From: an uncultured Ferrovum sp. | Lineage (GTDB): Bacteria > Pseudomonadota > Gammaproteobacteria > Burkholderiales > Ferrovaceae | Direction: 5' to 3' | DNA: 64,000 nucleotides | NCBI GenBank assembly: GCA_903867885.1 | Contig: CAIPTD010000039.1 | Span: 1-64,000, forward strand | In this document: in pieces, positions 6,181 to 37,152 of the stretch | Position numbering within the stretch: the first letter of the stretch is position 1 | How the letters are laid out: each line of letters opens with the position of its first letter | Made by a program: the position numbers and the translations under genes | The notes under the pieces: generated by a model | Databases searched by the model: none | What the model saw: the letters and a program-made list of their open reading frames with translations, nothing else | Told to the model about the DNA's origin: nothing

Positions 6181-7565
6181 GGCTGCAGACCTTTTTCACG
6201 GTATTCAACGAAAGCCGTATCACGTTGCTGACGCACCCAGTCATCAAAAGCTTCATCTACCTTGCGAGCACGCACCCCTTGTTTAGCTGCAAGGCGTCGC
6301 CGTTCTTCACCTACTTCGTTTTCTCTGAGTTCAACCAACTGAAGTAAATGCATACCCATCTGAGTTCGCACCGCTTCGCTCACCTCGCCAGGTTTTAAAG
6401 AAGTCATGATTTTATCGAATTCAGGAAAGCTCTCGCCTTGACTGACCCAACCGATATCGCCCCCTTTATTGCGGTTTTCATCTTCTGAGTTCAATTTAGC
6501 CAAAAGTTGAAAGTCCTCTCCTGCTTGCCATCGAGCACGCAGGCCTGCCAACTTAGTACGGGCATCGTTTTCAGTCAGCGTTGCATTTAAGCGAATTAAA
6601 ATTTCGCGAAGATGAAACTGCTTCACGATTTGAGAAACCTTGGAGCCGCGGCGCTCTACAACTTGAAAAATATGAAAACCGCTTCCTGCGCGAATGATGC
6701 TTGAAACCTCCCCAGGCTTCATACTTTGCGCCAAACTGGAAAATATAGAAGGTACTCGATTCATAGGACGCCACCCCAAACTCCCCCCTTGCAGTGCATC
6801 GGAAGCGTCAGAGAACGTTGCCGCCACTTGAGCAAAGCTTTGTCCCGCTTTTAACTTATCCATTGCCTGCCGCGCACGGGATTCTCTGCGGGCAATTTGC
6901 TCGGGATCAGCCTGTTCCGGAATAGAGACTAAGAGATGAGAAATGAGGATTTCTTCCTCATTTCCACCTGCGGCTTCCTCTGCTTTGAGTTGCGCGTCTA
7001 CTTCGGCATCTGTGACCACAGTCTTGCTATCAATCTCTCGATCGCGTAAGCGTGCGTAGAGTATTTCTTTTCGAATTTCTTCCCTAAACTTAGCCCATTC
7101 AATTCCTTCCTGCCGCAATTTAGTCCGGAAAGTGGGCACGTCAAGCTTGTTGTCTTCCGCTATTCGGCCTATCGCACCCTCTACCATTCCATCATCAATG
7201 CGCAGCCCCGTCTCTCGGCCATACTGAATCAAAACTTTATCGGTAATCAGCCGCTCCAGTACTTGTTTACGAAGGGCTTCTTTATCAGGAGTTTGACCTG
7301 ACTTACGAACAAATTGGCTATACAGCGTTTCGGTTCGCTCATCGAGTTCAACCTGCGTAATGACTTCGTTATTGACGACTGTAACGATCTTATCTAAAAC
7401 AGGTTTTGTTTCTTTTGCTGTTCGATTATTCTGAGAAGAAGAAGCTTTATCTCCAGCAACAATGTCCCGCTCATCAAAACGTGGCCCGAGCTCGGCTGAT
7501 TGTGCGTAGGCTACAAAAGTCATAGCAAGAATAGGTAGTCGCAAAAAACGCAAAAAACAAATCAT
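6177..7565 (-). CDS. surA: Periplasmic chaperone / peptidyl-prolyl isomerase SurA
   Basis: A 462-residue periplasmic chaperone for outer-membrane proteins, including the neighbouring LptD. A short signal peptide (about residues 1-24, ending AYAQSA) precedes a SurA N-terminal domain with DKIVTVVNNEVITQVELDER (about 58-77). Two parvulin-type PPIase domains follow, near 205-305 (ILISHLLVSIP ... GGSLGWRPMNRVP) and 325-425 (FHLREILIRLN ... GGDIGWVSQGE). A C-terminal helix closes the chaperone core. The start ATG overlaps the lptD stop by one base (TAATG), and the stop overlaps the inferred CTG start of pdxA. Genetic linkage with lptD matches their functional link. Confidence 0.96.
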   Translation of the reverse strand: MICFLRFLRLPILAMTFVAYAQSAELGPRFDERDIVAGDKASSSQNNRTAKETKPVLDKIVTVVNNEVITQVELDERTETLYSQFVRKSGQTPDKEALRKQVLERLITDKVLIQYGRETGLRIDDGMVEGAIGRIAEDNKLDVPTFRTKLRQEGIEWAKFREEIRKEILYARLRDREIDSKTVVTDAEVDAQLKAEEAAGGNEEEILISHLLVSIPEQADPEQIARRESRARQAMDKLKAGQSFAQVAATFSDASDALQGGSLGWRPMNRVPSIFSSLAQSMKPGEVSSIIRAGSGFHIFQVVERRGSKVSQIVKQFHLREILIRLNATLTENDARTKLAGLRARWQAGEDFQLLAKLNSEDENRNKGGDIGWVSQGESFPEFDKIMTSLKPGEVSEAVRTQMGMHLLQLVELRENEVGEERRRLAAKQGVRARKVDEAFDDWVRQQRDTAFVEYREKGLQP

Positions 7566-9787
7566 TAATAAATCTCGTTGGTCTTCCTGTATCCAGGAAT
7601 ATTAGTTTTGAGCGCCTCCAGCGGGTTTTTCCCCAAGCGCACCATGCCATTTAATTCAAGCTGCACATAAAGCACTGAGTCTACTTGCGTTGATGATACG
7701 GTCTTACGATCTGTCACCACTCTAAGTGCCCAGCACCCGGCATTATACTCAGCGCCAAATAGGCTCTCTACCAAGGTTGACTGCGCTGTATCGTAGTTCA
7801 CCCTTGCAACTCCAGACCAACCTCTTCCTAGAGGTAATTCAGCAGAGGCATCAATTTGACGAATATCAGCTTGCCCGGGGGTATCTCGGTTAATGCGGTA
7901 GCTCAGATTGATTGCTTGCCCTGGTTGGGGAATGTATCTTCCATCTATACTAAATTTTTCAGTGCGCTGCAAGGTTGGGTTGTAATCCCAAAGAAAACTT
8001 GATGTCATTTCTTTGTTAATACGTCCACTCAATCCTGCCAGTATGTCCGAAGAATTACTTGAGCGCACGGTTTGTCCTGAGATTGCTGTCTGTTGGGCTT
8101 CAAAATAATATCTTTGGCCTATCAGACCTCTAATTAATTCTGCTCCATTTTTGGTATCAATCAATCGGGACTGCACTGCTGCAGTAATCTGATTGGCTTC
8201 ATTGATTCGATCTGGGCCACTGAATTGATTTTCAGAAAAAAGCTGGCTGTAGCTGAAGTCAGCCACCCCGGTATTAAAAAGCGGCAGCGAGCTCTGGTCT
8301 TTATAAGGAATATAAACGTAATACAAACGTGGCTCTAAGGTTTGCATCATGGCTTGATCATTCCATTCCAAATCCCGATCAAAAAATAATCCGGTGTCTA
8401 GGCTGGTTATGGGTACAGTACGTGAGACGTTTTGGCCGGAAAAATTTTGCATTCCCTGGCTTATAGAAGTGGTGCCTGACTGCAAATTATAATCGGTGTA
8501 ATGCAAACTCACTTTGGGAGCAATAAATCCGTATCCAAGATTGATAGGTAATTTTAAAGATGGGTTAGATACATAACGTTGTCCCTGAATATTTGATGCC
8601 AAATTTGAATGCAGAAAATCAGTAAATTCATTATTGAAATCAAAATCCATCCCATACACATCATTGGAATAATTTGCCACAAACTGAGGCCGCATTCGAT
8701 ACTGATCCCCAATGGGTTTATTGGGATCATTCAAGGTTTGAAAAGATAAAGCATGCAGTTGTAAAGACCACAAATCATATTGTTTGGTGAGCAAAAAATC
8801 CCTAGGCAAGTAAGGGTTTGCCGCAGCGTTAGCATTTGGAATGACGGTAGAACCCAGATCTCTTAGGTAGCCATTATCAGAGGCTTCCTGGGTGTTAATC
8901 ATTAAACCAAAACCATTTCCCAGTTGGGCTTGCTGAGTCAAACTCCCAAAATAGCGATTGGTTCCTGTTAAGCGATCGTGATCCAGATATTCCAGTGCCA
9001 GCTTTCCTGCTATTCCGGGTTCAAGGTAACGAAACTCGTTACCAATCATCAAACCGCGCTTACTCATTTCACGTGGAATTACAGTGTCGTCTAGATTGGG
9101 CGCAATATTGATGTAGTAAGGGGTGGTGATCTCAAAACCATTATTGGTTGTTCCGAAATCTGGCGCTAAAAAACCAGACTTGCGATGATCATTCATCGGA
9201 AAAGTAATGTAAGGGGAATACACCAGAGGCACCCCTTCAAAGATAATCCGGGCATTGGTGCCGTCACCAATTTGCGTACCAGAATCTAGATTCATATCAC
9301 TGGCAGTCATATACCAATCTGGTTGATCTGCTGAACAAGTGCTAAAGCGCGCCTGGTCAAACCGACTATGTAAATCATCCAAGAAAACCCCAAGTGAGGC
9401 AGAGGCGTGCGAGGCATACATCCGATCCGCCCCTGCAGGCAAGGTGATTTGAGGCGACGCAATAAAACCTGTATGGTCTTTTAGGTTGTATTCCCCTTTG
9501 GGGCCCGTAAGGAGATCCGTACCGCGCTCGATGACAACATTGCCCAAAGCAATACAACGCTCATCCGGGACCAGATATTGAATCTGATCTGCTGTAATTG
9601 TTAAGTTAGGCTGGGTAGCGACCGCTCTTCCTGTAGCAGTGATCACATCATTCATAAAGCCTTCAATATGAACAGCATCGATCTCAGTGGTTTTTTGAGC
9701 ACCAGAAGACGACTGCGAATCGGCATAGCAAAGCCCGACCGACAAGCTCAATAAGAATAAAAATACCAACAACAGCACATTGCGCAT
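7565..9787 (-). CDS. lptD: LPS-assembly protein LptD (Imp/OstA)
   Basis: A 740-residue outer-membrane beta-barrel that, with LptE, inserts lipopolysaccharide in the outer leaflet. I chose the ATG at 9787 because it begins a clean signal peptide (MRNVLLLVFLFLLSLSVG ... YA|D) and has AGG a few bases upstream; the frame is open further 5' to 9913. The N-terminal OstA/jellyroll domain is at about residues 35-150 (ITADQIQYLVPDERCIALGN). The barrel follows, with GVPLVYSPYITFPMNDHRKSGFL and a C-terminal NAGCWALRVV. Cysteines outside the signal peptide are about C78, C151 and one near the C-terminus, so the four-cysteine, two-disulfide arrangement of E. coli LptD is not fully present. Confidence 0.95.
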   Translation of the reverse strand: MRNVLLLVFLFLLSLSVGLCYADSQSSSGAQKTTEIDAVHIEGFMNDVITATGRAVATQPNLTITADQIQYLVPDERCIALGNVVIERGTDLLTGPKGEYNLKDHTGFIASPQITLPAGADRMYASHASASLGVFLDDLHSRFDQARFSTCSADQPDWYMTASDMNLDSGTQIGDGTNARIIFEGVPLVYSPYITFPMNDHRKSGFLAPDFGTTNNGFEITTPYYINIAPNLDDTVIPREMSKRGLMIGNEFRYLEPGIAGKLALEYLDHDRLTGTNRYFGSLTQQAQLGNGFGLMINTQEASDNGYLRDLGSTVIPNANAAANPYLPRDFLLTKQYDLWSLQLHALSFQTLNDPNKPIGDQYRMRPQFVANYSNDVYGMDFDFNNEFTDFLHSNLASNIQGQRYVSNPSLKLPINLGYGFIAPKVSLHYTDYNLQSGTTSISQGMQNFSGQNVSRTVPITSLDTGLFFDRDLEWNDQAMMQTLEPRLYYVYIPYKDQSSLPLFNTGVADFSYSQLFSENQFSGPDRINEANQITAAVQSRLIDTKNGAELIRGLIGQRYYFEAQQTAISGQTVRSSNSSDILAGLSGRINKEMTSSFLWDYNPTLQRTEKFSIDGRYIPQPGQAINLSYRINRDTPGQADIRQIDASAELPLGRGWSGVARVNYDTAQSTLVESLFGAEYNAGCWALRVVTDRKTVSSTQVDSVLYVQLELNGMVRLGKNPLEALKTNIPGYRKTNEIY

Positions 9788-23059: not shown

Positions 23060-24151
23060 TCATCTCTTTTCAAAAAGGTAATGGGCAACGCCCCACTCGC
23101 GACCTTCATTAAAACCAAATAACTCAGCGACTGCCATATAAAACATACGCCAGCGTTGAAACCAGATCCGTGCTTCAGCATCACCATATGCTGAAACTAA
23201 AATCGCAATGCACTCTGTGCGATTGGCATCTAATTGCTCCAACCAATGATTGGAGGTTTTTTCATAGTGACGGCCATCTACCCACCACTGATCTAACAAT
23301 TTCAACTTCTCTTGAAAGAACAAAAGCAAATGTTCAGATGGCATGGTGCCCCCCGAAAAGAAATAACGTGTCATCCAATCATTATCGCCATGATCCTCAA
23401 AATGATAAGTGAGAGTTCGATGCGCGAAGATATGAATAAATAGCATTCCTTGCGGCCTCAGCCAACGCGCTACTTTTTCCAGCAGCGCGCTGTAATTCTT
23501 CATATGCTCAAACATCTCAATAGAGATCACACGATCAAACGGCGCCTCTGCGTGCGCTTCAATAAAATCAAATTCAACCACATTACCTGTGACAATTTTT
23601 AGGTTATGAATGCCCCGTTCCTGAGCTCTTGCTTGAATAAACTCTCTTTGGCCATGCGAATTAGACAAGCCAACAATCTGCGAATTGGGAAATCGTTCGG
23701 CCAGCCACAGTGACAAGGAACCCCAACCACACCCCAAATCTAATATTCGCTGACCATCCTTGAGTCGCGCGCGCAAAGCATACAATTCCAACATGGCCTC
23801 TTCTGCTCTTTGCAGACTTTCAGTGCCAACTGGATACCAACAACAGGAATATTTAAGTCGCGGCCCCAAATGTTTTAGGAAAAACGCAGCGGGTACTTCG
23901 TAATGTTGTGCGTTGGCTGCTTGGGTTTCGATCGCAATTGGACTCGCCCTAAGTGAAGCCACCATCGCACGCGTGCGCTCTGTGATGCCTTCAACGCCTA
24001 GCGCAGACTCCATTTTTAAACGTTGCTGCATTAAGCGCCGCATGCCTGCTCGCGCAATCCAATCAGGAATCCATCCTCTCTCGCACAGGTCTATGGGCGA
24101 CCACGTCATCACGGGGCGTGGGCTGTAGTTTGATGAATTGGAATCTGTCAC
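23060..24151 (-). CDS. Cyclopropane-fatty-acyl-phospholipid synthase family methyltransferase
   Basis: A 363-residue SAM-dependent enzyme of the CFA synthase family. The family's N-terminal part is followed by QHYEVPAAFFLKHLGPRLKYSCC, and the SAM motif ILDLGCGWGSLSLWLAERFP lies near residue 135. VISIEMFEHMKNYS and FIHIFAHRTLTYHFED are also family features. The start is GTG at 24151, with GAGG 8 bases upstream, 7 bases after the DUF1295 stop; a longer in-frame start at 24250 lies inside that gene. Expected activity is methyl or methylene transfer to unsaturated membrane acyl chains. Which product (cyclopropane, methylated or furan precursor) cannot be told from sequence. Confidence 0.88.
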   Translation of the reverse strand: MTDSNSSNYSPRPVMTWSPIDLCERGWIPDWIARAGMRRLMQQRLKMESALGVEGITERTRAMVASLRASPIAIETQAANAQHYEVPAAFFLKHLGPRLKYSCCWYPVGTESLQRAEEAMLELYALRARLKDGQRILDLGCGWGSLSLWLAERFPNSQIVGLSNSHGQREFIQARAQERGIHNLKIVTGNVVEFDFIEAHAEAPFDRVISIEMFEHMKNYSALLEKVARWLRPQGMLFIHIFAHRTLTYHFEDHGDNDWMTRYFFSGGTMPSEHLLLFFQEKLKLLDQWWVDGRHYEKTSNHWLEQLDANRTECIAILVSAYGDAEARIWFQRWRMFYMAVAELFGFNEGREWGVAHYLFEKR

Positions 24152-24158
24152 AAAAACC

Positions 24159-24938
24159 TCAAAATCGACGGGGAGGGAAAGGGATAAATGCGCTCGTGGT
24201 TTTGATGTAGTCAGCATACTCGGGGCGTTTAGCGGCTGCCTCGGCTTCATTCAGCGGGATACCAGAAACCTTGATGAGCAGGTATGCCATGACTATAGGT
24301 GGAATAAAAGAGAGCCAGACCATGGGGGTATCCCACGCCAATAGGGTGTAGCAAGGCCAGTGCAAGCACTCAAAAAAATAATTAGGGTGACGAGACCAAC
24401 CCCACAAGCCAGATCGGCATACTCTGCCTTTGTTTTCAGGTCGAGTACGGAACCGTTCTAATTGGCTATCGGCTAAGGCCTCGCCTCCTAGCGACAATAC
24501 AGCTAATACCAGTGCTGAAATGATTTGCCATTCCTCTAAAGGTCTCGCTTGCCAGCATACCGCCCACATCCCCAAAGAGAGTAAACTCGCTGCTACGGCC
24601 TGAAAAATAAAAAATTGCAACATCCGGCGATCAGCCATCTCCCCCCAATCTGTTCTTAAACGACGATAGCGGCCGTCTTCAGGCTTTCCTGCATTTCTGA
24701 GATAAAGGTGCGTTCCTAATCTCAAGCCCCAAGCGCCAGCAATGACACCAACCATTAAGCGCGTAGTCAAATCGGCGCTACCCACCAGAGCGTATAAGAC
24801 GCCCATAGCGCCCATGCTCCAAGACCAGACTGGGTCGACCATACCCGCATTACGCGTTTTAAGTTGTCGGACCCATACAGCTATAAACGCCATGCAGGAG
24901 AGAACAAAGCCAAGTAAAAGCGCACTTAAGGCAGGCAT
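24159..24938 (-). CDS. DUF1295 membrane protein (steroid 5-alpha-reductase-like fold)
   Basis: A 259-residue protein with about six or seven hydrophobic segments. The DUF1295/isoprenylcysteine-methyltransferase-like C-terminal signature is visible: CRSGLWGWSRHPNYFFECLHWPCY near 165-188 and LLIKVSGIPLNEAEAAAKRPEYADY near 221-245. The family includes membrane reductases and methyltransferases that bind NADPH or SAM next to a lipid substrate. The adjacent CFA-like methyltransferase (7-base gap) suggests joint modification of membrane lipids. The ATG at 24938 has AAAGAG 7 bases upstream. The exact reaction is unknown. Confidence 0.85.
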   Translation of the reverse strand: MPALSALLLGFVLSCMAFIAVWVRQLKTRNAGMVDPVWSWSMGAMGVLYALVGSADLTTRLMVGVIAGAWGLRLGTHLYLRNAGKPEDGRYRRLRTDWGEMADRRMLQFFIFQAVAASLLSLGMWAVCWQARPLEEWQIISALVLAVLSLGGEALADSQLERFRTRPENKGRVCRSGLWGWSRHPNYFFECLHWPCYTLLAWDTPMVWLSFIPPIVMAYLLIKVSGIPLNEAEAAAKRPEYADYIKTTSAFIPFPPRRF

Positions 24939-30314: not shown

Positions 30315-31250
30315 CTAGGCAAATAATCTTGAATGGTCAGTTTTCTGCCGCCACCGCGCTACCTCTGCAGGAATACCGTCTAGATCGTTGATTATCATTA
30401 CTTTTTCAGGAACTCGTTTGATTCGGGCCACTCCCGCACCGCCCACCCATATTTCAACGTGCTGCTGAAGCGCTTTTCTGAGTTCCGTGATCCCTTCACT
30501 GCTTCGAGTTCGGGGGTAAGCCTGGCTGAATGAAAGAGCAACGATATCCGCTTGGTGTGCTGCAACCGCCGACACAATGTCCGCTATAGGCATTTGTATC
30601 CCAAAAGAAATACATTCCGCGCCTTCCATTGCCATTAGTACCTCAACCATCAGCAAGCCAAGCGCGTGTTGCTCGTTGGGAAAGGTAGTCAACAAGACTC
30701 GGGGGGCTTTTAATTCTGTAGTGCGCGCTTCACCAGCCCATTTTCGAAGCAGGTTCTGCATCACCTCTGTAAAAAGATGCTCTTCAAAAATCGCTAACTC
30801 ACCTCTAAACCAAGCCTCTCCGACTGCTCTAACCATCGGGGCAGCAACTTCAAGGATAAATCTTCGTAAGCCAAGGTTTTGTACTTGACTTTGAAGCGCC
30901 GACCGCAGTTCGGTAACCCGATGTTCACTGATAAATCTTAATAAATCAGTGATGAAATCATTTTGGTTGAAGGGATCTTGAACGTGCGAGCCACCCAATA
31001 ACTCAAGCAAGGAATGATAGGGCTGAGGGATGATTTTACCCGGCCTGAACCCTTTATCCATTAAACGTCGGATCAGTCGCAGCTTATCAACTTGGGCAGG
31101 GGGATAGATACGATCCCCAAACTGATCTCTCGTTGGAGAAGGAAAGCCATAACGCCTCTCCCACATCCGCAAGGTATCTTTAGATAATGCAGTTTCCCGC
31201 TCCACTGCACTGATAGGTACTGCTAACCCGGTTTCTTCTCTTGGCTTCAT
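30315..31250 (-). CDS. MerR-family regulator with cobalamin-binding domain, CarH/LitR-like
   Basis: A 311-residue regulator with three parts: a MerR helix-turn-helix (about 10-75; ISAVERETALSKDTLRMWERRYG), a helical B12-cap domain (about 95-175) and a Rossmann cobalamin-binding domain (about 182-300). The cap holds W147-x9-E157-H158, the Wx9EH pattern that in CarH contacts the adenosylcobalamin. The Rossmann part holds E193-x-H195-x-x-G198, the ExHxxG motif whose histidine can ligate cobalt. In characterised CarH and class I LitR proteins, dark adenosylcobalamin-bound tetramers repress, and light breaks them. All ligand positions are kept, so a light-sensing repressor is likely, but a redox or B12-level sensor is possible. 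A palindrome lies upstream at 31360-31390. Confidence 0.86.
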   Translation of the reverse strand: MKPREETGLAVPISAVERETALSKDTLRMWERRYGFPSPTRDQFGDRIYPPAQVDKLRLIRRLMDKGFRPGKIIPQPYHSLLELLGGSHVQDPFNQNDFITDLLRFISEHRVTELRSALQSQVQNLGLRRFILEVAAPMVRAVGEAWFRGELAIFEEHLFTEVMQNLLRKWAGEARTTELKAPRVLLTTFPNEQHALGLLMVEVLMAMEGAECISFGIQMPIADIVSAVAAHQADIVALSFSQAYPRTRSSEGITELRKALQQHVEIWVGGAGVARIKRVPEKVMIINDLDGIPAEVARWRQKTDHSRLFA

Positions 31251-31819: not shown

Positions 31820-32605
31820 TTAATTCAAATCGTGCCAAATACTGAGTACAAAGCCTCTCTGCCAGCGTGACTGGGTAATGGGGCTAGCCGCAGCAGCCCC
31901 AAGCAGACGCCATTGATCCAATCGAGCGTCCAGTCGATATTGGGGGGACATCTTCCACTCCAGGCCCACCGAAGTCTGAAAATCCTGCCACCCCCCCCCT
32001 GCCATGAAGGTATTCAAGCCACTGGATGCAGCAGCCGTAGTATTGACTCCAAAGAATGCTTGTCTCCAAGCACCATTTGCCCAGGTCATCCCTATCGTTC
32101 CCCCTAGCAAAACAGATGGGCTAAGCGGGGCGCCAAAACTGCTTCCAAACTCAGCCAGGGTCCCATCTTCATTGGGACCTAAGCCGGTTCGAACCGAAGA
32201 TTGCAACTGTGCAAATTCAACTGGCCACCAATTTGCAAATGCAGTGCGTTCTATCCGCCAAGGAATTTTGGATAAGCCTGACACTTTTCCGCTTTGCTGA
32301 TCATTGCGGGGAGGATCGACATAGAGCCGCACGCCAATTTGTAGATCTTTGCGAGCAGAAAAATTCCAACCTAAGCCTAAATCTGTAGATAAAAATGCAC
32401 CCGAGGGGTCCATCCATTCAAAAGCAGGGATGGGCAAATAGCTTAAAGAATCACTGCCGGGTTCGCGCGGAAACCCAAACAGGGAAGCCCCGAAAGAAAT
32501 ACTGGCTTTATTCTCAGGAGGAGGATCAATGAGTAATAACCCTCCTTGGGCAAAGGAAAACCTTACAGCACTCAATAGAATTAAGGCCGATATATAACGC
32601 TTCAT
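31820..32605 (-). CDS. MipA/OmpV-like outer-membrane protein
   Basis: A 261-residue protein with a signal peptide of about 19 residues (MKRYISALILLSAVRFSFA). The mature part has alternating short strands with aromatic ends and finishes in a C-terminal strand SRWQRGFVLSIWHDLN, as in outer-membrane barrels. Features such as LSYLPIPAFEWMDPSGAFL and LGLGWNF resemble MipA/OmpV scaffolding or porin-like proteins. Its start overlaps the ketosynthase stop by 4 bases, so it is the last gene of the six-gene operon running from 37070. A role in exporting or sensing the operon's product is an inference from this coupling. Confidence 0.75.
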   Translation of the reverse strand: MKRYISALILLSAVRFSFAQGGLLLIDPPPENKASISFGASLFGFPREPGSDSLSYLPIPAFEWMDPSGAFLSTDLGLGWNFSARKDLQIGVRLYVDPPRNDQQSGKVSGLSKIPWRIERTAFANWWPVEFAQLQSSVRTGLGPNEDGTLAEFGSSFGAPLSPSVLLGGTIGMTWANGAWRQAFFGVNTTAAASSGLNTFMAGGGWQDFQTSVGLEWKMSPQYRLDARLDQWRLLGAAAASPITQSRWQRGFVLSIWHDLN

Positions 32606-33837
32606 GGCACCGCCGCTGCAATCAATACCCCACTGGTACCCCCGAATGCAAAAGAATTAGACATGGCATACCGAAGGTTTGGGGTTTCTCTGGATTGGAC
32701 TAAAACGTGATCTAACACACACTCAGGATCTATTTGATCCAGGTTTGCAGTCGGCGGCACGCGACCGTCTCTTAAGGATTTGAGGGTAATAAGCAATTCT
32801 AAAGCTGACGCCCCGCCCAACAAATGACCATGCACCGCCTTAGTTGAACTTACCGGAAGCGTTGCAGCGTGCGTGCCAAACACCTCTCTGATGGCTGCAG
32901 CTTCAGTACTATCGTTGGCTTGTGTTCCTGTGCCATGGGCATTGATATAACCAATTTCTTGTGGCTGTAAATTGGCATCCTTTAGAGCAGCGCACATTGC
33001 ATGTGCTTGTCCTGCAACACTAGGCTTGGTTAAGTGAACTGAATCACTAGTACTTGCGAAACCCTTTAGCTCAGCCAAGATTTCAGCACCACGAGATTGA
33101 GCATGATCCCAAGCCTCTAAAACAAAAAAGGCTGCGCCCTCCCCCAACACCATCCCTGTTCTGTTTTTGGAAAAGGGTTTACAGGAGCGACTTATCGATA
33201 GGGGGTCCGGCTCAGCCAATGTTCGCAATGCTTCCCATGCATGAAGCACGCTGGGGTATATCAGGGCCTCTACGCCTCCCGCCACCATCAGCGAGGCTTC
33301 CCCATAACGTATTTTTCGGGCTGCCTCACCTATTGCAATCGCAGAAGAGGCACAGGCAGAGCAAAAAGTCACATTCGGACCTGTGAATTGAGTTTCAATC
33401 ACAATGTGCGCTGCGGCGGCGTTTGCCATACTGGAAGGAATAGTCAGCGGTTTTAATCTGCGGCTTTGTTCAGCAAAAAAACTATGATAAGTGGCTTCCA
33501 TGGATCCCGCCGACCCCATCCCCGTTCCTACATAGACACCACATTGCTCAAGATTGAGTTGCTGTCGGTTAGCCGCGGCCATTTGCAATGCACTTCTGCT
33601 CGCCACAAGAGCAAATTGCGAGGCCCGGTCTAGGGTGCTGAGTTGGGATAGCGTGAAATGATCTCGCGGATTAAATTGCTCTATCCAAGCAGCGGGGCGA
33701 TTAGGCCAAGGGCCATCTGCCCGATCTTCAAGAGCCCTGACTGCTGAGTGACTATTCAGAATTGCCTGCTGAAAGATATCCGGATCATTACCCCAAGGAG
33801 AAACTACACCCCATCCGGTCACGGCAACCCGATGCAT
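32602..33837 (-). CDS. Beta-ketoacyl-ACP synthase (KAS I/II-like), operon-specific
   Basis: A 411-residue thiolase-fold condensing enzyme. The full catalytic set is visible: nucleophile C162 (FCSACASSA), H301 (INAHGTGTQAND), K333 and H338 (STKAVHGHLLGGAS). It should therefore condense an acyl-thioester with malonyl-ACP, unlike chain-length-factor subunits that lack the cysteine. The fatty-acid housekeeping set (fabD, fabG, acpP) is not beside it. Instead it overlaps by one base (TAATG) the gene for a dedicated acyl carrier protein. This, with an aminotransferase and a hydrolase in the same operon, suggests a special acyl product rather than bulk fatty-acid synthesis. Confidence 0.9.
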   Translation of the reverse strand: MHRVAVTGWGVVSPWGNDPDIFQQAILNSHSAVRALEDRADGPWPNRPAAWIEQFNPRDHFTLSQLSTLDRASQFALVASRSALQMAAANRQQLNLEQCGVYVGTGMGSAGSMEATYHSFFAEQSRRLKPLTIPSSMANAAAAHIVIETQFTGPNVTFCSACASSAIAIGEAARKIRYGEASLMVAGGVEALIYPSVLHAWEALRTLAEPDPLSISRSCKPFSKNRTGMVLGEGAAFFVLEAWDHAQSRGAEILAELKGFASTSDSVHLTKPSVAGQAHAMCAALKDANLQPQEIGYINAHGTGTQANDSTEAAAIREVFGTHAATLPVSSTKAVHGHLLGGASALELLITLKSLRDGRVPPTANLDQIDPECVLDHVLVQSRETPNLRYAMSNSFAFGGTSGVLIAAAVP

Positions 33838-34079
33838 TATGCCTTGCCTTGCTCCTGACGCAGTCGATCAATCATCGATACCACATCTGCGACTGTAACA
33901 ATCTTAACTTCATCATTGGCTACTTTGATATCAAATACAGATTCAATATCAAAAATCAAATCAAAAACAGCAAGCGAATCTAAGCCCAGTGTGTCTAAGC
34001 TGGCCTCAGGAAAGATCTGGGCTGACTCGACCTCAAACTTATCGGCAATCAGCCCGCGCAATGTTTCAAGTGTATCCAA
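33837..34079 (-). CDS. Dedicated acyl carrier protein
   Basis: An 80-residue ACP. The phosphopantetheine attachment serine is S35 in LDTLGLDSLAVFDLIFDIE, and the protein is acidic with the four-helix pattern of the family. It differs from housekeeping AcpP, whose motif reads DLGADSLDTVE. The start is TTG at 34079 with AAGG about 5 bases upstream. The stop overlaps the ketosynthase start. It presumably carries the acyl intermediate made by the ketosynthase and offered to the hydrolase upstream. Confidence 0.9.
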   Translation of the reverse strand: MDTLETLRGLIADKFEVESAQIFPEASLDTLGLDSLAVFDLIFDIESVFDIKVANDEVKIVTVADVVSMIDRLRQEQGKA

Positions 34080-34093
34080 AAGCCTTATAGTCC

Positions 34094-34999
34094 TTAAGCT
34101 GCTATCGCAGGTTGTGCACGCAAACTAAAAAAGTTCCCAACACGTTCTGCCACATCGTCCTTTCTTCGATCTAGTGTAAGTACGTGATACGTATTATCAA
34201 TCAGCCAAGTCTCGACATCTTTTGAAGCAATTCGTTGCGTAACGAAATCAACATTTTTAGTACTCGCCATATCATCTTCTGTTGAATGAACAACCAGAAC
34301 TGGGCATTGCACCTGCGCCAACGATTGGGTGACATGCCAGATTAGTTTACTGCTTTCATGGACAGTGACGAGAGGTGTTTTAAATATTCCTACTTTTTCA
34401 GCAGCGTGGGCATCTCTATTTTCTAAAACAGCATGAACCATTGCCCTGGTTCTTTCACATTTAATTCCATATGGGGCAACTTCATGCCAATACATAAAAT
34501 GTTTTAGGGGGGTCATCAAAGCCAGAGGTAACAATGAACGTCTGAGTTTTGGCATATTCCATCCATCGTAGAAAAAGGTGGGAGAGAGTAAACCCACCCC
34601 GGCTACTTGTTGCCCATGCTTCGCTGCGAGTTCTAGAGCCAACAATGCGCCCATTGAAAGTCCTGAAACAAATACTTGATGGTGGCGATCACCTAAAAAA
34701 CGAAAAGCTGCATCCACACTGGCATACCAATCTTGCCAACTTGAACGCTTTAACTCTTTGATGGAGCCGCAATGCCCTGCGAGCTGAGGAACCATCACAC
34801 TAAATCCTTTACGTCGCAGTTTGCGCGCCAAATGCCGCATTTCTGCTGGTGTACCGGTTAGGCCATGTATCAGTAAAACAGCATCCTTGCCTCTGGGTTC
34901 ATAAAATCCTGTTGGACCCAGTAACTGCTTAAGCTTGGTCATTTCGGCCTCAGAAGAGGCATTAGGGTTTGCCAGCGCCGTTGAGCTCTCAAGCATCAT
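34094..34999 (-). CDS. Alpha/beta hydrolase, carboxylesterase or thioesterase-like
   Basis: A 301-residue alpha/beta hydrolase similar in layout to carboxylesterase Est30 and monoglyceride lipases. The oxyanion segment is LLIHGLTGTP (43-52), the nucleophile S115 is in VSGLSMGALL, the acid is D242 or D243 in HSTEDDMAS, and the base is H272 in NTYHVLTLD. No signal peptide is seen, so it is cytoplasmic. Within an operon with ACP and ketosynthase it could release acyl chains from the carrier or transfer them to an acceptor. Its start overlaps the aminotransferase stop by 4 bases, and 14 bases separate it from the ACP gene. Confidence 0.85.
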   Translation of the reverse strand: MMLESSTALANPNASSEAEMTKLKQLLGPTGFYEPRGKDAVLLIHGLTGTPAEMRHLARKLRRKGFSVMVPQLAGHCGSIKELKRSSWQDWYASVDAAFRFLGDRHHQVFVSGLSMGALLALELAAKHGQQVAGVGLLSPTFFYDGWNMPKLRRSLLPLALMTPLKHFMYWHEVAPYGIKCERTRAMVHAVLENRDAHAAEKVGIFKTPLVTVHESSKLIWHVTQSLAQVQCPVLVVHSTEDDMASTKNVDFVTQRIASKDVETWLIDNTYHVLTLDRRKDDVAERVGNFFSLRAQPAIAA

Positions 35000-36372
35000 G
35001 ATGCGCCCACTCGGTGCAGTAATGCTTCCAGGAGTTGCATCCCCAGATCAATTTCAGATTCGCTGATCATTAAATTGGGTGCAAGTGTAATGACATTTTT
35101 ATAGTAGCCGCCGATATCTAAAACGAGTCCATATTTTTTTCCATTTAGGTCGATATTCCCCAGAAGACCTTCATTGAACAAGCGATCGGCTAATTTTCGA
35201 CTAGGCGTGAATCCATCGGGTTCACACAACTCAATCCTGAGCGCCAGACCTAGACCACTTACTTCGCCAATCACTTTCCAGCGCGATTTCAACGCTTGAA
35301 TTTGCTTTAGAAAATAGGAGCCACGCTCCATCACTTGCGCGCCAATATCTTCTTCCTCGGCCATTTTCAATACTTCTAAAGCCACAGCGGTCCCAAGGGG
35401 GTTTGATGCAAACGTGCTGTGCGTAGAGCCGGGTGGGAACTTTTGAGGGCTGATCAATTCTTCACGGGCCCATATCCCTGAAATTGGATTGAGGCCGTTG
35501 GTAATTGCTTTACCGAATACAAAGACGTCGGGAACAATACCAAAGTGCTCCCATGACCAGAGTTTTCCTGTGCGGTATACGCCCATCTGGATTTCATCTA
35601 CCACTAGCAAGACGTTTCGTTTCTTCAGCGTAGCCGCGAGCTTCTGCATGTAGGTGGCAGGTGGAATGACATATCCTCCTGTCCCCTGAATCGTCTCGAC
35701 ATAAAAAGCGGAGTATTCGCATTCCCCAACTTTGTCATCCCAGAAGGAGTTGTATTCTGTATCAAAGAGCTTTTCAAACTCCTTGTGGCAATACATATCG
35801 CAACTGTCGGGCTTCATACTGTAAGGGCAGCGAAAACAATAAGGAAAGGGAACAAAGTGAGCCCGATCAGAGAAATGACCATAGCGACGGCGATAGCGAT
35901 AGCTGGAGGTAATCGCTGAAGCTCCTAGCGTTCTTCCGTGATAGCCACCCATAAAAGCAAAATTAAGGCTTTTTCCTGTAAAGTTTCGCACCAATTTGAG
36001 CGAATCTTCAACCGCTTGCGAGCCACCCACATTAAAGTGAACTCGGCCCTTCTCACCGTACTCCCGCTCCATATAAGTGCAGATTTTTTCCGCCAACTCT
36101 ACTTTTTCACGGTGCAAGTATTGGCTTGCTAACTGAGGCAAGGTATCAATTTGGCGTTTAAGCACCTCTGTCAGTCGAGCATTTTTGTAGCCAAAGTTCA
36201 CGGCTGAGTACCACATCTGCAAGTCGAGATATGAGGTGCCCTCATCATCAAATAAATAACTTCCTTGGCAGCCAGAGAAGAATTTAGGGGGATCTGCGTA
36301 ATGCACCGTATCGCCGTATGAACAATACAGACGGTCTTTTTCTAGAAGGGCGTCCATCTCTGCCTTATTCAT
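34996..36372 (-). CDS. Class III PLP-dependent aminotransferase
   Basis: A 458-residue fold type I aminotransferase of the ornithine/4-aminobutyrate class. The PLP lysine is K288 in VFVFGKAITNGLNPISG, the cofactor aspartate D259 is in LLVVDEIQMGVYRTG, and STFASNPLGTAVALEVL is the usual substrate/phosphate-loop segment. Four cysteines, C179, C182, C191 and C195 (PYCFRCPYSM ... SCDMYC), form a CxxC-x8-CxxxC pattern in the large domain; similar cysteine groups occur in some archaeal-type GABA aminotransferases. The substrate cannot be read from sequence. It overlaps the HAD phosphatase upstream and the hydrolase downstream by 4 bases each. Confidence 0.88.
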   Translation of the reverse strand: MNKAEMDALLEKDRLYCSYGDTVHYADPPKFFSGCQGSYLFDDEGTSYLDLQMWYSAVNFGYKNARLTEVLKRQIDTLPQLASQYLHREKVELAEKICTYMEREYGEKGRVHFNVGGSQAVEDSLKLVRNFTGKSLNFAFMGGYHGRTLGASAITSSYRYRRRYGHFSDRAHFVPFPYCFRCPYSMKPDSCDMYCHKEFEKLFDTEYNSFWDDKVGECEYSAFYVETIQGTGGYVIPPATYMQKLAATLKKRNVLLVVDEIQMGVYRTGKLWSWEHFGIVPDVFVFGKAITNGLNPISGIWAREELISPQKFPPGSTHSTFASNPLGTAVALEVLKMAEEEDIGAQVMERGSYFLKQIQALKSRWKVIGEVSGLGLALRIELCEPDGFTPSRKLADRLFNEGLLGNIDLNGKKYGLVLDIGGYYKNVITLAPNLMISESEIDLGMQLLEALLHRVGAS

Positions 36373-37070
36373 CGCACTATCCCTGTAAGTTTAGATTGCC
36401 GGGGTAGCTCAGCTAAATTGGGCATACCCTGCAAAACTGGCCAAGCTTTAATTGATGCCAAAACATCACGGAAAGACTGGAATTCAGTAAAGGGTATTGC
36501 TTCAGCCTCGCAGTGACGAGCAAGAGATTCTTTGGCAAATACATAGTCAACTCGGCCAGACAAGCACATGTCTGAACGACCATCACCTATCAGCACTATT
36601 GGCTGTGCGGAAGCACCAGAGAGTTTTCGCGTTACCGCACATTTGCAGACACCGCTTCCTACTTCACAATCACTATCAGTATTCGGAAAATCCAATTCCC
36701 AACGACCATCTACAAAACCTAAACGATTGGCAAAGACAGGAATACCAGGAAACCCCGCTGCTTCTAAAGCTGTATGAATGGCACGCCCAATCCCATCGCT
36801 AATGATGGCAACTTCAGCAAAGGTTTGAACGTAATTCAAAAAGGGTAAGAAGCTAGCGTCCAGGCGAATCGTTGAAAAGAAACGCTCTAGCTGTTGCTCG
36901 TTTCCTGTAATCATCCTTATTTGCTGACGCATGCATTCTTTTGCCGTTATGCGCCCTTGCGCCCATTCAGCTTCAATGGCGTGCCATTCAGCGGGGGCAT
37001 GGCGCTCTAACAAGGCATCCACACTGTCTCGCAGCGATAAAGTGCCATCAAAGTCAATCACGAAAAGCAT
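36369..37070 (-). CDS. HAD-IB family phosphatase (MtnX/PHOSPHO1-like)
   Basis: A 233-residue HAD phosphatase. Motif I is D6-F-D8-G-T (VIDFDGTLSL), motif II is IISDGIG, and motif IV is LIGDGRSDMCLSGRVD. The cap insertion after motif I places it near MtnX-type and phosphoethanolamine/phosphocholine phosphatases. I chose ATG 37070 (MLFVIDFDGT); a TTG at 37088 is also in frame. It is the first gene of the six-gene operon and could dephosphorylate a phosphorylated amine or alcohol intermediate, which is inference. The CEVGSGVCKCAVTRKL stretch contains three cysteines near the expected motif III lysine. Confidence 0.85.
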   Translation of the reverse strand: MLFVIDFDGTLSLRDSVDALLERHAPAEWHAIEAEWAQGRITAKECMRQQIRMITGNEQQLERFFSTIRLDASFLPFLNYVQTFAEVAIISDGIGRAIHTALEAAGFPGIPVFANRLGFVDGRWELDFPNTDSDCEVGSGVCKCAVTRKLSGASAQPIVLIGDGRSDMCLSGRVDYVFAKESLARHCEAEAIPFTEFQSFRDVLASIKAWPVLQGMPNLAELPRQSKLTGIVR

Positions 37071-37152
37071 TGTGGTGGGCCGGAGCAAAACCGGCTGTCA
37101 GGAAAATGTTGCTAATTGTAACTGAGCTTGTTACGAATTGACCTGACTAGAT

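Follow-up and report, generated by a model that had tools for sequence, protein, structure and literature searches.

What might a phosphatase, a pyridoxal phosphate (PLP) enzyme, a hydrolase, an acyl carrier protein, a ketosynthase and an outer-membrane protein make together when their genes lie end to end? The question is raised by a row of six genes in DNA of an uncultured Ferrovum sp., which we analysed within a stretch of 64,000 nucleotides, hereafter the window.

Layout and proteins of the six-gene row

In transcription order on the minus strand, the row consists of an MtnX-like HAD-IB phosphatase (HAD; 36369..37070, 233 aa from the ATG; PF12710 35.4 bits), a PLP enzyme of the class III fold annotated as an aminotransferase (AT; 34996..36372, 458 aa), which served as the cluster marker, an alpha/beta hydrolase of the Hydrolase_4 type (HYD; 34094..34999, 301 aa; PF12146 95.5 bits), a dedicated acyl carrier protein (ACP; 33837..34079, 80 aa; PF00550 35.3 bits), a FabF-like ketosynthase (KS; 32602..33837, 411 aa; PF00109 and PF02801) and a protein of the MipA/OmpV outer-membrane beta-barrel family (31820..32605, 261 aa; PF06629 96.3 bits against a cut-off of 24.2). 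All six proteins scored above the Pfam cut-offs, the HAD protein with PF12710/PF06888. Its reading frame is open from a TTG at 37088 and its ATG start lies at 37070. The genes overlap by 4, 4, 1 and 4 bases and leave one gap of 14 bases (34080-34093), so that the co-directional, closely packed arrangement of the original prediction was confirmed to the base. Promoter-like matches in the region numbered 7, against a mean of 8.8 in shuffles, and terminator-like matches 4 against 6.8; because neither was commoner than in shuffles, it is spacing alone that suggests co-transcription of the six genes. Outside the row (~59 kb of the window), a profile search revealed no further HAD, AT, HYD, ACP, KS or MipA.

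The window has the catalytic residues that the original prediction had described as intact, and alignments of homologues show them to be conserved; the catalytic roles of the residues named here for the HAD protein, PLP enzyme, hydrolase, ACP and ketosynthase are those that we presume. The Asp of the DxDGT motif of the HAD protein occurs in 80 of 82 aligned sequences (the other 2 have gaps) and K149 in all 82. Its predicted model (pLDDT 92.6) has MtnX as its nearest solved fold (2fea, Z 28.1), followed by phosphoserine phosphatases with Z of about 16-22. MtnX and phosphoserine phosphatase act on small phosphorylated keto or amino compounds, and for that reason we favour a small phosphorylated substrate. 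The hydrolase column of S115 holds Ser in 64 and Cys in 8 of 72 sequences, with D242 and H272 in 72/72. Ser35 and the DSL motif of the ACP are found in 32/32 aligned sequences, and its TTG start recurs in the sister loci L013 and L121. The ketosynthase carries the Cys-His-His and Lys set (C162, H301 and H338 in 33/34 each, K333 in 34/34) with PF00109 and PF02801 above cut-off, which places it among the decarboxylating ketosynthases at the family level.

The original prediction had also called the PLP enzyme an aminotransferase. The protein has the class III aminotransferase fold (PF00202, 252.7 bits), its PLP lysine K288 is found in 93/93 aligned sequences, and T429, R159 and R161 are each equally invariant. 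The two nearest solved relatives, 9wqz and 7vno, have Arg at the column of T429, and this Arg is presumably the alpha-carboxylate binder of 2-oxoglutarate-type class III transaminases; the window enzyme, with Thr where Arg is expected, does not conform to that type. In addition, racemases account for 19 of its best 20 fold matches (24-26% identity). Aminotransferase identity is thus not established. The model of the enzyme falls below pLDDT 50 at residues 141-144, 147-160, 168-177 and 319-322, and because of this low confidence its Arg-rich loop could not be placed.

Comparison with the housekeeping enzyme, which the original prediction had put forward as a check, showed that the ketosynthase is not the sole FabF. 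It scored 406 bits against the NCBI fabF cut-off of 493.75 (TIGR03150), while the true FabF of its own genome, on contig C93, reached 655. Each of the nine genomes examined has one FabF above this cut-off (647-680 bits) and at least one other ketosynthase below it, those of the window type scoring 389-465 bits. In the ketosynthase tree the nine FabF proteins form a single clade (100/100), separate from the window type, and the reading of the ketosynthase as housekeeping FabF was rejected. The ketosynthases of the window genus join those linked to the PLP enzyme, mostly from Methylophilaceae, and stand apart from the other ketosynthases of their own family (support 93/91, short of the starred level). 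In this tree L120 and L121 bear the label of loci with the PLP enzyme, although they lack it. Three ketosynthases, two of L066 and one of L087, belong to neither the FabF clade nor the 44-row clade.

Conserved neighbourhood and an unlinked second locus

Gene neighbourhoods were surveyed in 93 stretches containing the PLP enzyme, drawn from several phyla and excluding L120 and L121; contig ends cut stretches short, and 57 of them extend for 5 kb or more on either side. One sample comprised the best 80 of 582 loci, and in it the PLP enzyme was 63-71% identical between phyla. Open reading frames called in GC-rich loci included antisense shadow frames; the profiles rest on a treatment that removed five families of this kind and forced the PLP-enzyme frame. 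Many genomes are metagenome-assembled, so that single-taxon placements may be binning errors. The conserved linkage anticipated for the cluster was borne out: HAD was found in 83 and the hydrolase in 72 of the 93 stretches, and HAD, AT, HYD, ACP and KS are consecutive among profile-recognised genes in 13. The ketosynthase was found in 34, the ACP in 30 and both together in 29; the ACP immediately precedes the ketosynthase in 32/95 stretches, a count that includes L120 and L121, with a median gap of -1. MipA occurs in 16/93. Further neighbours were small transporters (SMR) resembling the half-transporters ArnE/ArnF (45 stretches, two or more in 30), a FemAB/GNAT-like transferase (FEM; 37), arginase-family proteins (30), DegT (14), a desaturase (7), a CFA-synthase-like protein (6) and, with profiles that are unspecific for these as for ABC proteins, histidine kinases (30) and response regulators (37). 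Locus L028 combines a two-component system and two desaturases with HAD, AT, an arginase-family protein, SMR, HYD, ACP, KS, FEM and SMR. In the cultured Novimethylophilus kurashikiensis (locus L033), HAD, the PLP enzyme, the hydrolase and the ketosynthase share a stretch with FEM, SMR, DegT and an arginase-family protein. In Acidobacteria, too, ACP-KS lies beside HAD-AT, in a different gene order, and acidobacterial versions carry an MGDG-synthase-type glycosyltransferase. TolC, a DevA/LolD-like ATPase and a weakly DevC-like permease adjoin the cluster in L009, and MacB- or DevC-like exporters are found in several loci. The ArnE/ArnF-like SMR proteins, the desaturases, the CFA synthase, the L009 genes and the glycosyltransferase together point to an envelope or lipid character.

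The ketosynthase is missing from 59/93 stretches, and from 35/57 where the flanks are complete; it is therefore not obligatory beside the core, and since most stretches that pair the PLP enzyme with HAD lack it, the acyl part may lie off the main path. Conversely, modules occur without the PLP enzyme. Six family-f1 loci, as well as L149 and L151, contain HYD-ACP-KS but neither HAD nor the PLP enzyme, and the sister species G001 and G003 have kept ACP-KS-MipA while lacking both the PLP enzyme and SMR-SMR-FEM (the G001 contig ends just upstream of the ACP). Among 61 relatives, a ketosynthase of the window type is present in 30 (E 1e-95) and the PLP enzyme in 4, their association reaching p 0.05; in the class sample, only 2/5 ketosynthase holders (E 1e-100) have the PLP enzyme. 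No PF00491 arginase was found linked to the row or elsewhere in the window genome, and an arginase of that family was rejected here on this ground; the window version of the cluster may accordingly be reduced, although a divergent arginase copy may have escaped, since a Pfam search overlooked the FEM of the same genome too.

SMR and FEM are absent from the window and were found as an SMR-SMR-FEM operon on contig C58 of the same genome. PF04339 alone overlooked this FEM and gave a single strong copy elsewhere; it was located through the SMR search and then by profile. The operon is also present in G004 and G002, so that these two and the window genome (G000) hold both the PLP enzyme and SMR-SMR-FEM, and the close sisters G001 and G003 neither. 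Among the 61 relatives, the PLP enzyme and FEM occur in the same 4 genomes and never alone (Fisher 1.9e-6); three of the four belong to one genus, and the value becomes 5.8e-4 after two same-genus genomes are dropped. In the class sample, FEM was detected in 5/6 holders of the PLP enzyme and in 2/363 non-holders (Fisher 2.3e-9); G067 holds the PLP enzyme, but FEM was not detected there at the cut-off applied, and the FEM of the two non-holders is weaker. These counts include genomes (G334, G426 and G054) in which FEM and PLP enzyme share a contig, so that in these three co-occurrence is not independent of linkage, and a FEM match in G000, G002 or G004 follows from the building of profiles A6 and A7, which include the copies of these genomes. 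For each of the nine cluster SMR proteins compared, the best match is ArnE or ArnF, at 27-58 bits and hence below the NCBIfam cut-offs for these L-Ara4N flippase subunits (92 and 99).

The PLP enzyme is patchily distributed, in 6/369 class genomes including the window's own. It is also carried on plasmids (34 records, 60-80% identity), where the top 15 among the matches listed are all from Rhizobiaceae, and a scan of viral contigs returned a single remote homologue (26% identity). We rejected a recent transfer of the first three genes alone within the genus: among the six, conservation is highest for the PLP enzyme, both between genus genomes (three pairs) and in comparisons involving L028 and L015, and a 10.5 kb part of the region aligns with G004 in one piece at 76%.

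A possible two-locus route and its rivals

Our preferred reading, which we hold tentatively and at slightly less than even confidence, is that a pathway is divided between two loci, with the six genes as one of its halves, and yields a lipid or lipid-like amphiphile of the cell envelope that is acylated and carries an amine. We infer its substrate, product, order of steps and envelope role as follows. The PLP enzyme would aminate a small phosphorylated keto compound, a candidate step being dihydroxyacetone phosphate (DHAP) to serinol phosphate, and the HAD phosphatase would then take off the phosphate, as happens with SerC/SerB or HisC/HisB, pairs in which amination is followed by phosphate removal. 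The ketosynthase may build a dedicated acyl chain on its own ACP, with malonyl transfer and reduction borrowed from fatty-acid synthesis, and the hydrolase may release or transfer that chain. The FemAB/GNAT-like protein of the unlinked operon would acylate or aminoacylate the amine, the ArnE/ArnF-like pair would carry the product across the inner membrane, and MipA could be an outer-membrane partner or sensor. Of the original interpretation, the linkage, the non-housekeeping ketosynthase with its own ACP and the theme of amine plus acyl chain with an envelope component stood. Self-containment did not, given the co-occurring SMR-SMR-FEM, the modules without the PLP enzyme and the frequent absence of the ketosynthase, and the aminotransferase identity was unsupported.

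A bolder version of this reading, which we think unlikely, takes the HAD-PLP enzyme pair as the mark of an undescribed, horizontally spread membrane lipid of Proteobacteria, Acidobacteriota and other phyla. A small amino-alcohol derived from DHAP or another phosphorylated keto precursor would replace or decorate the backbone, with acylation by KS/ACP, completion by the FemAB-like protein, flipping by the ArnE/ArnF-like pair and switching by an envelope-stress two-component system with MipA.

Several other explanations deserve weight. The ketosynthase might make a 3-oxoacyl-ACP that the PLP enzyme aminates on the carrier, the hydrolase then freeing a beta-amino fatty acid or small signal. ACP, ketosynthase and PLP enzyme do share one operon, ACP and ketosynthase are often adjacent, and the near-invariant Arg-rich loop, judged from sequence, may dock an ACP; yet most stretches with the PLP enzyme lack the ACP-ketosynthase pair while nearly all keep the HAD phosphatase, superfluous under this scheme, and we regard the scheme as improbable. 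To a similar degree we doubt that the cell secretes the product as an antibiotic or other natural product, through the SMR pair or nearby ABC-TolC pumps, instead of placing it in a membrane. Patchy distribution, plasmid carriage and the MacB- or DevC-like exporters would suit secretion, but none of 40 recurrent neighbour families judged by eye was NRPS- or modular PKS-like, the desaturases, CFA synthase and ArnE/F-like pair favour lipids, and the identity of the PLP enzyme between phyla is closer to what a core function would show than to a diversifying metabolite. Somewhat less probable still is that two unrelated modules share only a promoter, HYD-ACP-KS(-MipA) serving a special fatty acid and HAD-PLP enzyme amine metabolism. 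The modules lacking the PLP enzyme, the wider spread of the ketosynthase and its association with the PLP enzyme at p 0.05 speak for this, and it is opposed by the five-gene rows, by the acidobacterial pairing of ACP-KS with HAD-AT and by the grouping of the genus' ketosynthases with PLP-enzyme-linked ones. Methionine salvage by an MtnX-like phosphatase with an aminotransferase is very improbable. The HAD protein is closest to MtnX by sequence and fold and scores above the threshold of the broader family (TIGR01489, 94.2 against 81.55), but it misses both MtnX equivalog cut-offs by far (NF007103, 101.5 against 292; TIGR03333, 81.3 against 303.2), on which ground we rejected the salvage reading, and ACP, KS, FEM, flippase and MipA have no salvage role.

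Relation to known systems

In keeping with the original prediction, which could match the genes to no known pathway, the matches listed in open-access literature searches included no paper on the gene set and no described pathway for it. Under the two-locus reading, six generic annotations become a pathway open to testing, one that has an enzyme to mark it, a second locus out of sight of the first and a pattern of presence and absence that singles out genomes for comparison, G000, G002 and G004 against G001 and G003; a new envelope aminolipid, if real, would bear on surface adjustment in many environmental Gram-negative bacteria. Parts of the set recall known systems. With FabF/AcpP of type II fatty acid synthase it shares the ketosynthase family, catalytic set and discrete ACP, but its ketosynthase has a carrier of its own and is linked to amine genes, besides its separate clade and sub-threshold score. 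The L009 genes, adaptor included, resemble the heterocyst glycolipid exporter DevBCA-TolC; they score below the DevA/B/C cut-offs, however (215.6 of 295.8, 39.5 of 129 and 57.2 of 290.35), and such genes occur in few loci and are absent from the window operon.

In RtxA, one domain of a bifunctional protein is credited with both steps from DHAP through serinol phosphate to serinol (PMC3222319). The proposed route would likewise aminate a phosphorylated ketone and then dephosphorylate it, but on separate proteins, and serinol is only a candidate product of the cluster. In P. aeruginosa, MipA is reported to belong to a ParRS-dependent polymyxin-sensing module, and the arn operon with ParRS/mipBA resembles the cluster in its aminated building block, ArnE/ArnF pair, two-component system and MipA barrel (PMC10936184). 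The likeness extends to a DegT-type aminotransferase in some cluster loci; the cluster differs in having a class III PLP enzyme, HAD, ACP and KS, and ArnA/ArnC/ArnT-type genes are not among its 40 recurrent neighbour families. An arn-like locus, L186, lies apart from the cluster in the window genome; its DegT and SMR were tested, and its other genes bear the names that we presume for them.

The six-gene operon and its ketosynthase

Re-derivation of the coordinates gave six minus-strand ORFs, each with a Pfam match over cut-off: a HAD-IB phosphatase (HAD, 37070-36369), a class III-fold PLP enzyme (AT, 36372-34996), an alpha/beta hydrolase (HYD, 34999-34094), an ACP (34079-33837), a ketosynthase (KS, 33837-32602) and a MipA/OmpV protein (32605-31820). 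Order, strand and junctions agreed with the original prediction, and the recognised catalytic residues that it described as intact were also conserved in alignments. Among the matches listed, none of the six proteins reached the cut-off of an NCBIfam equivalog; only broader NCBIfam models were passed, by HAD (TIGR01489, TIGR01488) and KS (NF005589). A profile search of the remaining ~59 kb of the window revealed no extra copies of the six families. Because the GC content of the operon (47.9%) is close to that of the window (48.6%), composition shows no sign of recent foreign origin. Downstream of the operon, also on the minus strand, lie a MerR/B12-binding regulator (30315-31250), related to CarH yet below the CarH cut-off (116.6 of 400), and, ~7.6 kb away, a cyclopropane-fatty-acid-synthase-like ORF (23060-24250; 125 bits with the CFAS profile of the cluster).

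The possibility, raised in the original prediction itself, that the operon KS is the sole housekeeping FabF of its genome was excluded by scores and phylogeny, since in all nine genomes tested one FabF passed the curated cut-off, at 647-680 bits, and a different KS, of operon type, stayed under it (389-465 bits), and since a phylogeny of 56 KS placed the nine FabF in a clade of their own (100/100) and 44 KS of cluster type in a second (100/99). The remaining three KS, from loci L066 and L087, belonged to neither clade. Operon-type KS were detected in 30 of 61 relatives (E 1e-95) and 5 of 369 genomes of the class (E 1e-100). Three loci without PLP enzyme (L153, L154 and L155) carry KS from the same wider clade and probably represent another pathway; KS adjoins ACP in L153 and L155, and ORFs near KS in L153 and L154, labelled from their first residues, are presumably FabH-like and FAD-oxidoreductase-like.

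The PLP enzyme as marker of the cluster

The PLP enzyme is the marker of the cluster. It is rare, being present, with the window genome counted, in 4/61 relatives (E 1e-60) and 6/369 class genomes (E 1e-140), and no other of the six proteins is as well conserved: identities to the same-genus relatives G004 and G002 and to Methylotenera locus L028 were 97, 85 and 75% for the PLP enzyme, 82, 64 and 52% for HAD, and 73, 62 and 51% for KS. The best 80 of 582 homologues were 63-80% identical and came from Methylophilaceae, Legionella, Acidobacteriota, Rhizobiales, Desulfovibrio, Omnitrophota and others. Plasmid-borne copies accounted for 34 records at 60-80% identity, the 15 matches listed all being from Rhizobiaceae. 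R159, R161 and Thr429 were invariant in 93 sequences (R162, 91/93; R163, 92/93), the Thr429 column holding Arg in the two nearest solved relatives. The 20 best fold matches comprised 19 racemases and one aminotransferase, with 22-28% identity among the 50 matches listed. The protein is a putative transaminase.

Profile annotation of 93 PLP-enzyme stretches, reaching as far as about 10 kb per side, identified as neighbours HAD (83), HYD (72), an ArnE/ArnF-like half-transporter (SMR, 45; at least two copies in 30) and a FemAB/GNAT-like transferase (FEM, 37). KS was found in 34, ACP in 30 and both in 29. Regulators comprised response regulators (RR, 37), histidine kinases (30) and sigma-54 regulators (18); other neighbours were arginase-family proteins (30), MipA (16), PaaK-like ligases (15), DegT (14), MGDG-synthase-like glycosyltransferases (13), desaturases (7), CFA-synthase-like proteins (6) and DUF2147 (6). 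In the 57 stretches that extend 5 kb or more on each side, the counts were HAD 53, HYD 47, SMR 34, FEM 26, KS 22 and ACP 20. In 77 stretches HAD lay immediately 5′ of the PLP enzyme and shared its strand (median gap 14). The run HAD-AT-HYD-ACP-KS occurred in 13, three of them from the window's genus, and the same three were the only PLP-enzyme stretches with ACP-KS-MipA. The widest gene set was that of L028. SMR proteins matched ArnE/ArnF best, but below cut-off, and FEM proteins matched PF04339 and/or PF13480. In Legionella locus L045, one 737-aa ORF (7391-9604) fuses FEM (residues 12-300, E 4.5e-37) to DegT (residues 323-730; a profile built without this fusion gave E 6.7e-109). Nine acidobacterial stretches (L051, L056, L061-L063, L067, L070, L071 and L074) showed a different order, namely RR-like, ACP, KS, MGDG-synthase-like glycosyltransferase, PaaK-like ligase, HAD and PLP enzyme, and profile search detected no HYD, FEM or SMR in them.

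A second locus and the mosaic structure of the operon

The window genome (G000) has no PF00491 match and only one strong PF04339 protein, so the gene set at first seemed truncated. A profile of the cluster SMR proteins revealed an adjacent SMR pair on its contig C58 that has counterparts in G004 and G002; loci L183, L184 and L185 share an overlapping SMR-SMR-FEM order followed by a PQQ-domain protein. A separate arn-like locus of the window genome (L186, contig C28) is distinct from this pair; DegT and a single SMR were tested there, and its remaining gene names are our assumption.

FEM profile A7 (E 1e-10) matched exactly G000, G002, G004 and G054 among the 61 relatives, the same four that hold the PLP enzyme (Fisher p 1.9e-6; 5.8e-4 with two same-genus genomes dropped); since A7 was built in part from the G000, G002 and G004 sequences, whose matches are a given, the test is informative for the remaining 57 relatives, which lack FEM, and for G054, which has it in linked position. 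The broader profile A6, likewise with copies from these three (E 1e-20, 369 class genomes), matched 5/6 PLP-enzyme holders versus 2/363 others (p 2.3e-9), the holder without a match being G067 and the weaker matches of non-holders those of G151 and G300. FEM lies on the PLP-enzyme contig in G334 and G426, and on other contigs in the draft genomes G176 and G389.

Searches of the sister species G001 and G003 detected no PLP enzyme, SMR pair or FEM; ACP-KS-MipA is retained in both. It has no adjoining HAD or HYD in G003; the G001 contig breaks off immediately 5′ of ACP, hence this adjacency is not visible there. Their KS fall within the genus clade (100/100), adjoining that of the PLP-enzyme carrier G002, and the simplest reading is that the amine and flippase parts were lost together, once. 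Six other family members (family f1; L145-L148, L150, L156) carry HYD-ACP-KS as a trio that lacks both HAD and the PLP enzyme and whose KS form another clade; its setting is presumably of ychF/pth/rplY/prs-like genes, in some with lipA/lipB (names from sequence motifs). From these trio-only loci and the joint absence in G001 and G003 it follows that the six-gene operon is a mosaic, in which HYD-ACP-KS is a separable module and HAD-PLP enzyme goes together with the unlinked SMR-SMR-FEM. Such trios were also seen in L149 and L151.

Proposed function

By sequence and fold, HAD is nearest to MtnX and next to phosphoserine phosphatases, which act on small phosphorylated keto or amino compounds. SerC/SerB and HisC/HisB are pairs of a PLP enzyme and a phosphatase, and the PLP enzyme with its MtnX/SerB-like phosphatase resembles them. 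The combination also recalls the RtxA route, which is reported to lead from DHAP to serinol (PMC3222319). KS, ACP, HYD and FEM may serve acylation and the ArnE/F-like pair flipping, and the two-component system and MipA might act in envelope sensing or response (PMC10936184). We infer the substrate, the product and the order of steps; the product that we favour, with slightly less than even confidence, is an envelope aminolipid. A keyword search of an open-access library, with subscription journals and preprints outside its scope, gave no paper on the gene set among the matches listed. The PQQ-domain protein directly 3′ of SMR-SMR-FEM in the window genome (L183, 7097-8917), of the alcohol/glucose dehydrogenase type, has homologues at the equivalent place in G004 and G002 and is a possible further member of the pathway.
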